Source: Caldilineaceae bacterium
GTDB taxonomy: Bacteria; Chloroflexota; Anaerolineae; Caldilineales; Caldilineaceae
Reading direction: 5' to 3'
NCBI GenBank assembly: GCA_020845455.1
Contig: JADLFO010000319.1
Location: 1-43,433 of the forward strand
Length of the DNA stretch: 43,433 nt
Part shown: piece after piece, positions 26,982-30,059 of the stretch
Layout of the letters: each line of letters begins with the position of its first letter
Position numbering within the stretch: the stretch's first letter is position 1
Notes under the pieces: generated by a model
The model's input: the letters and a program-made list of their open reading frames with translations, nothing else
Database searches by the model: none
What the model was told of the DNA's origin: nothing
Translations under genes and position numbers: made by a program

Positions 26982-27062
26982 GGCGGGGATGGTGTTCCTT
27001 CTAGTTGGGCCGGGTCGAACCAGGGGCAACTGGGTGGCGCAGTAAGTATATGATCGTTGAAT

Positions 27063-27091
27063 GGTATACGCCCGTTGGGTTTGTTTGTCAA
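27063..27091 (-). promoter_or_regulatory. Promoter for the SulP gene
   Basis: Read on the minus strand: a perfect TTGACA (27086-27091), 17-base spacer, TATACC (27063-27068). Transcription would start near 27056, giving a 75-base leader. It lies in the divergent region shared with recX. Confidence 0.65.
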
Positions 27092-27155
27092 CCGCGACGG
27101 GGTCTCGTTGCATGATCATGCGCTGTATGTGATCGTGGGTGGAGGGTGTACGAAT

Positions 27156-27812
27156 ATGGCCGATGTCACTGCCGGCAACGCCGGCGCGGGGAACGTGATC
27201 ACCGGGCTGGTGATCCAACAGCATAACAAGGAGCGGGTCAACGTCTTTCTCGACGGTGAATATGCGTTTGCCGTGGGGCTGGACGCCGCCTTGGGGCTGC
27301 GTAAAGGGCAACGGCTCAGCGCCGAGCAGATCGCCGCGTTCAAATACGAGGGTGAAGTCGACTTGGCCTATCAACGCGGCTTGCGCTATCTGGGCATTCG
27401 CCCGCGCAGCGAACAGGAGATGGCGACCTATTTGGCCGGCAAGGGCTATGTCGAGGAGGTGACGGCGGCGGCGCTGGCACGCTTGCGGGCGCGGGGCTAT
27501 GTAGACGACGCGGCCTTTGCGCGCTATTGGGTGGATAACCGCACCCGTTTCCGCCCGCGGGGGACGCGCGCGCTGCGTTATGAACTGCGTCAGAAGGGGC
27601 TGGATAGCCCGACGATCGACGAGGCGCTGGAGGAGCAGGATGAGGATGCGGCGGCCTGGGCGGCGGCCGCGCCTATGGCGGCGCGCTGGGCCGGTCTGCC
27701 GCGCGAGGAGTTTGACAGGAAGCTGATCGGCTTTCTGGCGCGGCGTGGCTTCAACTATGCCATCTGCCGCCGCGTGGCAGAGCGGGCCTGGCAGGAAGCC
27801 CACGGGGAATAG
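27156..27812 (+). CDS. recX: Regulatory protein RecX
   Basis: The 218-residue protein has the RecX three-helix repeats: YQRGLRYLGIRPRSEQEMATYL, then VTAAALARLRARGYVDDAAFARYWVDNR, and RGTRALRYELRQKGLDSPTIDEAL. The C-terminal repeat ends RKLIGFLARRGFNYAICRRV. RecX binds RecA filaments and limits recombinase activity. An N-terminal extension of about 65 residues with a beta-strand pattern (RVNVFLDGEYAFAVGLD) is usual for longer RecX proteins. ATG 27156 is chosen because GGAGGG (27141-27146) is 9 bases upstream; a frame open from 27057 lacks such a site. recA is not in the window. The stop is 2 bases from the convergent YigZ gene. Confidence 0.93.
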   Translation: MADVTAGNAGAGNVITGLVIQQHNKERVNVFLDGEYAFAVGLDAALGLRKGQRLSAEQIAAFKYEGEVDLAYQRGLRYLGIRPRSEQEMATYLAGKGYVEEVTAAALARLRARGYVDDAAFARYWVDNRTRFRPRGTRALRYELRQKGLDSPTIDEALEEQDEDAAAWAAAAPMAARWAGLPREEFDRKLIGFLARRGFNYAICRRVAERAWQEAHGE

Positions 27813-27814
27813 GT

Positions 27815-28447
27815 CTATGTTTCTTGGCCGGTCACTTCAAGCAGGGCCTGGCCGTTGGTGAGTTCGCCGATGGCCGCGTCGAAGCCGGGCAGTTGCTCGC
27901 TGGGCAGCCGGAGCCGATAGGTCACGTCGGCGGCGTATTCTTCGCCAAGCAGTTCGGCCTCATAGTCGGGCAGCAGACGTTTGAGGAGCGTCACGGCGGA
28001 GTAATCCACGAGCAGCGTCACATCGGTTTTGGGGACGCGTTCCAGCGTGGGCAGACCGGCGAGGGCAAGCTGCACGCCGCCGCTGTAGGCTTTGACCAAC
28101 CCACCCTTGCCCAAGAGTGTGCCGCCGAAATAGCGCGTGACGACCGCGCAAATATCACCGATGCCGCTGTGCAGCAAAACCGTCAGCATGGGCCGGCCCG
28201 CCGTGCCGTGCGGCTCGCCGGCGTCGCTCATGCCGATCTGTCCCGTGCTGCCGGGCGGCCCGACCACATAGGCCCAGCAGTTGTGGCCGGCATCGGCAAA
28301 TTCGGCGCCGACTTCGGCAATCAGGGCGCGGGCCGCTTCCACGCTGGGCGCAGCGCCGACGGTGGTGATAAAGCGGCTGCGTTTGATCTCTTCTTCGACG
28401 CGCCACGTTGCCGCGGGGATCGGGTAGCGGTTGCTGGGCCGGCTCAC
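27815..28447 (-). CDS. YigZ/IMPACT (UPF0029) family protein
   Basis: The 210-residue protein has the IMPACT N-terminal signature: [14 protein letters not shown], then [20 protein letters not shown] and the strongly conserved [22 protein letters not shown]-terminal ferredoxin-like DUF1949 domain (about 140-205) is present. The family is universal and linked to translation or nucleotide-related functions; its biochemical activity is not settled. It starts 12 bases after the end of the LysW-like gene, so the two are probably one transcript. That is an unusual pairing. Confidence 0.93.
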
Positions 28448-28459
28448 GGCGGATGCCGC

Positions 28460-28897
28460 CTATCGCCAGCGCCGTTCGCCGTCATCCTCGTCGCCGAAGT
28501 CGTCATCATAGTCAAGTTCGTCATCAAGTTCGTCGTCAAGTTCGTCGTCGAGTTCGAGGTCATCCTCTTCGTCGAGTTCGTCCTCAAACTCGTCGTCTTC
28601 CAACTCTTCACCTTCCAGATCGTCTTCTTCCAGATCTTCCTCGATCTCTATGTCCAGTTCGTCCTCAATCAGAAGCTCGCCGCGCAGATCCTCGCCTTCT
28701 AGGTCGCCGTCGAGGTCATCGACTTCTTCCATCTCGTCGTCCCAGTCATCGTCGTCGGCCCAGTCCAACTCGATGGGGTCGGTGGCGACGACCTCTAGGA
28801 CAGCGCCGCAGTGCGTGCAACTGACCTTTTGGCCGATGCGGGCGCGCCCTTCCAGTTCAATGGCTTCTTCACATTCAATACAATGCGTGGTCGGCAT
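28460..28897 (-). CDS. LysW-like zinc ribbon fused to a long acidic tail
   Basis: The 145-residue protein has an N-terminal ribbon of about 50 residues with two CxxC pairs (Cys6/Cys9 in HCIECEEAIEL and Cys27/Cys30 in VSCTHCGAVLEVV), then DPIELDWADDDDWDDE. This matches the amino-group carrier protein LysW/ArgW up to where LysW normally ends with EDWGE. The protein instead continues for about 90 residues composed mostly of Asp, Glu and Leu, and ends GERRWR. LysW carries lysine, arginine or ornithine intermediates on its C-terminal Glu; that terminal Glu is absent here, and no lysX/argX-type ligase is nearby. A carrier role is therefore doubtful. A metal-binding, RNA/DNA-mimic or protein-binding role is possible but unproven. 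AAGGAA precedes the ATG. Confidence 0.85.
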   Translation of the reverse strand: MPTTHCIECEEAIELEGRARIGQKVSCTHCGAVLEVVATDPIELDWADDDDWDDEMEEVDDLDGDLEGEDLRGELLIEDELDIEIEEDLEEDDLEGEELEDDEFEDELDEEDDLELDDELDDELDDELDYDDDFGDEDDGERRWR

Positions 28898-29065: not shown

Positions 29066-29094
29066 ATTATAAAGTTCCGAAAAGGTTTTGAAAA
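29066..29094 (-). promoter_or_regulatory. Candidate promoter for the LysW-like/YigZ operon
   Basis: Read on the minus strand: TTTTCA (29089-29094), 17-base spacer, TATAAT (29066-29071). The start near 29059 gives a leader of about 160 bases before ATG 28897. Confidence 0.5.
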
Positions 29095-29790: not shown

Positions 29791-29874
29791 CATGCGCGGC
29801 GTGCGGCGACTGTTATACGATCGGCGATGGCTGTTGCCAGAGCGTGCCCTGCTGCAGCGATTGTTGTGATCATA

Positions 29875-29934
29875 GCGGCTGTGATCGTTGCGGCTGTGAT
29901 CGTTGCGGCTGTGATCGTTGCGGCTGTGATCGTT
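29875..29934 (+). repeat. Tandem repeat, four copies of 15 bp
   Basis: GCGGCTGTGATCGTT is repeated exactly four times (29875-29934), followed by a partial copy. The period is a multiple of three. One frame would read repeated CDRCG and another AAVIV. The copies are identical, implying recent expansion by slippage. Confidence 0.85.
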
Positions 29935-30059
29935 GCGGTGACGGCTGCAACTGTGGGTGCGACTGCCCCTGTGATAGTGGCGGAAGCGGATAGGGCCACC
30001 GTCTGCGGCGGCGTGTTCGCCTGAGGGATGGCGGGGATGCGGCCCTGAGCAATGCTGCG

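Follow-up and report, generated by a model that had tools for sequence, protein, structure and literature searches.

LysW is the textbook amino-group carrier, and the gene described here raises the question of what a LysW-like protein does when a long acidic tail stands in place of the end to which the amino acid is attached. The gene lies in a stretch of 43,433 nucleotides from a Caldilineaceae bacterium (hereafter the window), whose genome (G000; 5.7 Mb) is 94% complete with a contamination estimate of 5.7%. The preliminary description of this DNA gave the coordinates of the gene exactly; the strand, which it left out, is minus (Table 1). An AAGGA sequence is located ~10 nt 5' of the ATG of the tailed gene.

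Table 1. Features of the window around the tailed LysW-like gene
Feature	Position	Strand	Remarks
recX, convergent with yigZ	27057..27812	+	
yigZ (YigZ/IMPACT family), probably cotranscribed	27815..28447	-	begins 12 bp past the stop of the tailed gene
LysW-like ribbon and acidic tail protein, 145 aa	28460..28897	-	ATG start; stop codon within coordinates
Basic/aromatic C-terminal tip ERRWR	28463..28477	-	R/K/H/W enrichment over shuffles
Disordered acidic tail, residues 56-145	28463..28732	-	62% Asp/Glu, charge -52; composition and AlphaFold
Imperfect 12-bp tandem repeat in the tail coding region	28511..28597	.	~7 copies, 70% matches
DDWDDE, residues 50-55, internal	28733..28750	-	paired with the EDWGE end of LysW in profile alignment with 3wwl and 5k2m
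Zinc-ribbon domain, residues 1-47, C6/C9/C27/C30	28757..28897	-	PF21344, AlphaFold, Foldseek
ELDW motif, residues 43-46	28760..28771	-	column counts set the subfamily apart from canonical LysW
Sigma-70-like promoter match, TTTTCA-17-TATAAT	29066..29094	-	~170 bp 5' of the ATG; consensus match only
Conserved divergent neighbor, 866 aa	30060..32660	+	no Pfam or NCBIfam match

The N-terminal part of the protein is predicted to be a zinc ribbon of the LysW fold. PF21344 (Zn_ribbon_LysW) scores 42.4 bits over residues 1-48 (cut-off 27), both CxxC pairs (C6xxC9 and C27xxC30) are intact, and a Foldseek search ranks the LysW structures 3wwn, 3wwl, and 5eio first, the best PDB match being Thermus thermophilus LysW. 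The scores to TIGR01206 (an equivalog; 26.6 vs 53.2 needed) and NF041070 (25.2 vs 75 needed) are below cut-off. Model confidence is high in the ribbon and low in the tail (pLDDT ~92-94 for residues 1-40, 85 for 41-50, and 48-58 in the tail). The LysW-like domain with two CxxC pairs recognized in the preliminary description is borne out, also by the structure prediction that it proposed as a check. Residues 40-55 read DPIELDWADDDDWDDE. Profile matches to PDB entries 3wwl and 5k2m reach the W of EDWGE, the equivalent of which is residue 52, and the chain runs past this position to GERRWR, confirming the earlier claim that the C-terminal attachment Glu has been lost.

The tail of about 90 residues ending in RRWR was likewise correctly described: 56 of its 90 residues are acidic (29 Asp and 27 Glu), encoded by mixed codons (GAC 21, GAT 8, GAA 17, GAG 10), and stops interrupt both other sense frames across the region. 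Tail length and sequence vary widely among relatives (26-120 residues), and the tail with its basic/aromatic tip is kept across divergent genera. Among eight tails, including one from G019 discussed below, R, K, H, or W occurred 20 times in the last five residues (2.1 expected by shuffling) and adjacent hydrophobic residues were rarer than in shuffles (15 vs 25.7), both tests being descriptive since tail starts were set by eye. A wider set of 33 acidic tails showed a moderate enrichment of aromatic residues in the last three positions (16 vs 9.6 expected, p ~0.016).

The combination of ribbon and acidic tail is encoded in eight of the 46 genomes of the order, namely that of the window and seven others of the same Caldilineales family. 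Frameshift, assembly artifact, or chance as the source of the tail is excluded by these seven tailed orthologs, and close relatives retain the tail rather than ending in EDWGE without it. In a profile search of the 46 genomes, seven tailed proteins had E-values of <=4e-27 and one was weaker (1.5e-13), with canonical LysW at 1e-11 and weaker. An alignment search of the genome contigs returned eight loci, and a single-sequence search of them with the window protein gave no match. Named matches to the tailed protein were mostly from Caldilineaceae MAGs, and at a strict threshold only the window's genome was listed from a sample of the phylum, which was an even draw and need not contain the genomes known to carry the gene.

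A normal LysW, for which the preliminary description suggested looking, is present in the same genome. It is found on contig C229, comprises 61 residues ending in EEEEDWGE, and is followed by LysX with a GSWGR motif; only one match in the genome exceeds the RimK-family cut-off, and it lies next to this LysW on C229. The window protein is thus a paralog of LysW and is excluded as the only LysW of its genome. The third PF21344 match in the genome, on contig C224, has its ribbon at the C-terminus and is a different protein. LysX/ArgX use their GSWGR motif to read EDWGE, the last Glu of which accepts the amino acid, and an E54A substitution in haloarchaeal ArgW results in arginine auxotrophy (PMC10433800). 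Because the W of the window protein aligned with this end is at position 52, with more of the chain after it, loading by LysX appears unlikely, as does a canonical carrier function.

Profile comparison places the ribbon in a separate ELDW-type subfamily of LysW-like proteins that is common in Anaerolineae. The ribbon scores 69.5 bits to a profile of this subfamily, built from non-Caldilineales LysW-like proteins only, and 35.9 to a canonical LysW profile, whereas the canonical LysW of G000 shows the reverse (39.9 vs 85.3). The ELDW marker follows the second CxxC, and among the best profile hits, which were sampled and are not a random draw, its D is present in 33 of 35 subfamily members and its W in 27 of 35, compared with 9 and 0 of 37 canonical LysW proteins, respectively.

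No lysX, argX, or other ligase was recognized among the neighbors of the window gene, so the earlier remark that ligases are missing nearby is correct for this locus; it does not extend to subfamily members elsewhere in Anaerolineae, which often, though not always, adjoin genes for AblA and an ATP-grasp ligase. Comparison of hit coordinates in 396 Anaerolineae genomes revealed a LysW-like gene directly upstream of an AblA homolog in at least 11 (G037, G044, G049, G054, G058, G077, G084, G088, G103, G115, and G277), and a Ddl-like ATP-grasp gene, sometimes two, follows AblA in nine of nine loci examined of these eleven. An OmpR-type regulator, often without a recognizable phospho-acceptor Asp, precedes many of the LysW-like/AblA loci; a search of G000 for this atypical regulator found no close copy, only general response regulators. 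A GNAT gene is also present at the AblA locus L147. The clusters at L062, L133, L135, L144, L147, and others contain an OmpR-type regulator, a LysW-like gene, lysine 2,3-aminomutase, one or two Ddl-like ATP-grasp genes, and sometimes a GNAT acetyltransferase. At L118:111-500 (+), a single chain has two LysW-like ribbons. No publication linking LysW to an aminomutase pathway was found in literature searches, and the Anaerolineae clusters of regulator, LysW-like, AblA, and Ddl-like genes are possibly an undescribed beta-lysine pathway.

Such neighborhoods could mean that the tailed protein is a carrier after all, a Ddl-type ATP-grasp ligase loading a Glu residue of ELDW-type proteins with, for example, AblA-made beta-lysine, in parallel to LysW/LysX or EpmB/EpmA-EF-P. 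Besides the gene order, this would agree with the terminal EEDWG kept by the L147 copy and with the AblA of G000, which is above the TIGR03820 cut-off (536.9 vs 525.4) and aligns with lysine 2,3-aminomutase 2a5h. AblA and the tailed protein also tend to occur together, AblA being present in four of the eight tailed-protein genomes (G000, G003, G012, and G016) compared with three of the other 38 in the order (Fisher p 0.012, uncorrected for phylogeny). Nevertheless, we consider this reading unlikely. C-termini vary within the subfamily, most of them having no terminal Glu, and the tailed proteins of G005, G006, G007, and G013 are found without an AblA homolog in the assembly. Moreover, in G000 the aminomutase gene (457 aa), which overlaps the Ddl-like ATP-grasp gene (L184:6053-8501, minus strand), is on contig C42 with no LysW-like gene there, the tailed gene being on C319, and the Ddl-like protein lacks the GSWGR motif by which LysX reads EDWGE. 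With four of eight assemblies lacking a homolog, AblA as a direct partner in every carrier genome is unsupported.

The window YigZ is assigned to its family by TIGR00257 (184.4 bits vs a cut-off of 167.95) and matches both PF01205 and PF09186. The pairing of the tailed gene with yigZ made in the preliminary description holds in part: its suggested search for tailed homologs clustering with yigZ places the gene directly upstream of yigZ, at 10-104 bp, in six of the eight carriers (G000, G003, G005, G006, G007, and G016), and this operon-like order is confined to one clade. Elsewhere, the tailed gene of G013 is near the 866-aa neighbor with yigZ on another contig, and G012 has a divergent tailed copy away from yigZ and the 866-aa homolog, which are ~250 bp apart with none between. 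In G019, L178:970-1398 (plus strand) encodes a protein of 142 aa that has no zinc ribbon, is 65% Asp/Glu, and ends in YGSRWG; its gene is 85 bp upstream of yigZ, the position taken by the LysW-like gene in other genomes. Homologs of the 866-aa protein are also near the LysW-like gene in G003, G007, G013, and G016. The 866-aa protein is present in all but one of the order's 46 genomes (45), its gene frequently lying close to yigZ; judged by eye alone, its sequence is suggestive of a phosphatase-like domain at the N-terminus, a membrane span, and a C-terminal part resembling a propeller. Between its gene and the LysW-like gene, positions 29840-29990 of the window contain a short tandem repeat whose plus strand reads as repeated CDRCG and whose minus strand reads as repeated TAATI.

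YigZ was found in 42 of the 46 genomes and the tailed protein in eight, which excludes the latter as an obligate YigZ partner. All carriers fall within one supported clade of 12 genomes in the YigZ tree (97/89), most inner forks of which are unresolved, so part of the pairing could be due to nothing more than synteny. The distribution fits a single origin at the yigZ site followed by loss, movement, or erosion. We conclude that the tailed gene is probably in an operon with yigZ in one Caldilineales clade; direct pairing of the two proteins is unproven.

The operon-like placement beside yigZ in six genomes, the charge of the tail with its spaced hydrophobic residues, and the acidic part standing alone beside yigZ in G019 would be in accord with a nucleic-acid mimic or nucleic-acid-protein chaperone whose tail covers basic surfaces, such as those of a partner associated with ribosomes or nucleic acids and linked to YigZ. 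This is quite unlikely in our view, because YigZ is itself negative (net charge -7 in the window, -6 to -10 in linked copies, and negative in most unlinked copies too) and is not an obvious basic partner; most YigZ-bearing relatives lack the tailed gene and no nucleic-acid system was identified beside the wider subfamily. Electrostatic pairing of the tailed protein with YigZ is, given the charge of the latter, unsupported. The nucleic-acid mimic and the metal or protein chaperone put forward in the preliminary description are guesses.

Alternatively, the protein might be a LysW duplicate whose tail, having hardly any function itself, drifts by repeat slippage, the yigZ pairing being inherited synteny. 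The variable tail length and the 12-bp repeats point in this direction, as do the confinement of all carriers to one YigZ-tree clade and the many genomes in which yigZ and the 866-aa gene are near each other without a tailed gene. However, ribbon, acidic composition, frame, and tip have been kept across genera and adjacent hydrophobic residues are scarcer than in shuffles, making drift distinctly improbable. We give a similarly low chance to ELDW-type proteins being partners or carriers of an undescribed AblA/ATP-grasp (beta-lysine) pathway in Anaerolineae of which the tailed Caldilineales copies are a re-routed branch coupled to yigZ. A metal buffer, binding zinc through the ribbon and divalent cations with low affinity through the many carboxylates of the tail, would suit the tail composition and intact ribbon cysteines but is very unlikely, as no metal regulator was seen among the conserved neighbors and the conserved tip is left unexplained.

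We favor a non-carrier docking or adaptor role, and tentatively regard the window gene as a non-carrier LysW paralog acting as a small adaptor or chaperone, a plausible reading that we place somewhat short of probable. It is non-carrier in that a disordered polyanionic tail replaces the free EDWGE end loaded by LysX and that canonical LysW and LysX are kept in the same genome; an adaptor is suggested by retention of tail and tip over divergent genera and by the ribbon-less acidic protein upstream of yigZ in G019. The ribbon would retain the docking ability by which LysW visits partner enzymes, and the tail, in which Leu, Phe, and Tyr are spaced among acidic residues ahead of a short end motif, would be a flexible arm recruiting or stabilizing a client, the whole acting as adaptor or chaperone and not as covalent amino-acid carrier. 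The protein probably descends from one that partnered the AblA/ATP-grasp enzymes adjoining the subfamily elsewhere, the gene of the Caldilineales clade having since come to its probable operon with yigZ. Against the adaptor reading, the tail could be loosely constrained, as its length and sequence vary and part of it is a 12-bp repeat; some AblA-linked members (L055, L064, and L065) have no acidic tail, and half of the carriers have no AblA.

The ELDW-type branch of LysW-like proteins is uncharacterized so far. PF21344 alone would assign its members to the carriers of lysine biosynthesis, probably in error. A branch that keeps the fold, lacks the attachment end, and bears a polyanionic tail beside a normal LysW would show a carrier fold put to other use, and the recurrent aminomutase/ATP-grasp neighborhood in Anaerolineae offers a concrete pathway to test.

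LysW-like carrier proteins of natural-product clusters, such as that with a Family 3 encapsulin, are likewise paralogs outside the lysine and arginine pathways, inferred to tether intermediates (PMC8346489); no such cluster was recognized at the window locus. Compared with LysW/ArgW (3wwl, 5k2m, 3vpb; PF21344, TIGR01206), the window protein has the same fold, both CxxC pairs, and LEVV followed by proline, but has ELDW instead of the canonical residues, a 90-residue acidic tail, and no C-terminal EDWGE, and its gene does not adjoin lysX. RNA polymerase delta similarly joins a small folded domain to a long Asp/Glu tail and is unrelated in fold and sequence. Beta-lysylation of EF-P by EpmB/EpmA combines a lysine 2,3-aminomutase-family enzyme with a ligase, a comparison that concerns the AblA-linked relatives only. 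Unlike EpmA and EF-P, those loci have a Ddl-like ATP-grasp ligase and a candidate zinc-ribbon acceptor, both unrelated to their EF-P system counterparts.
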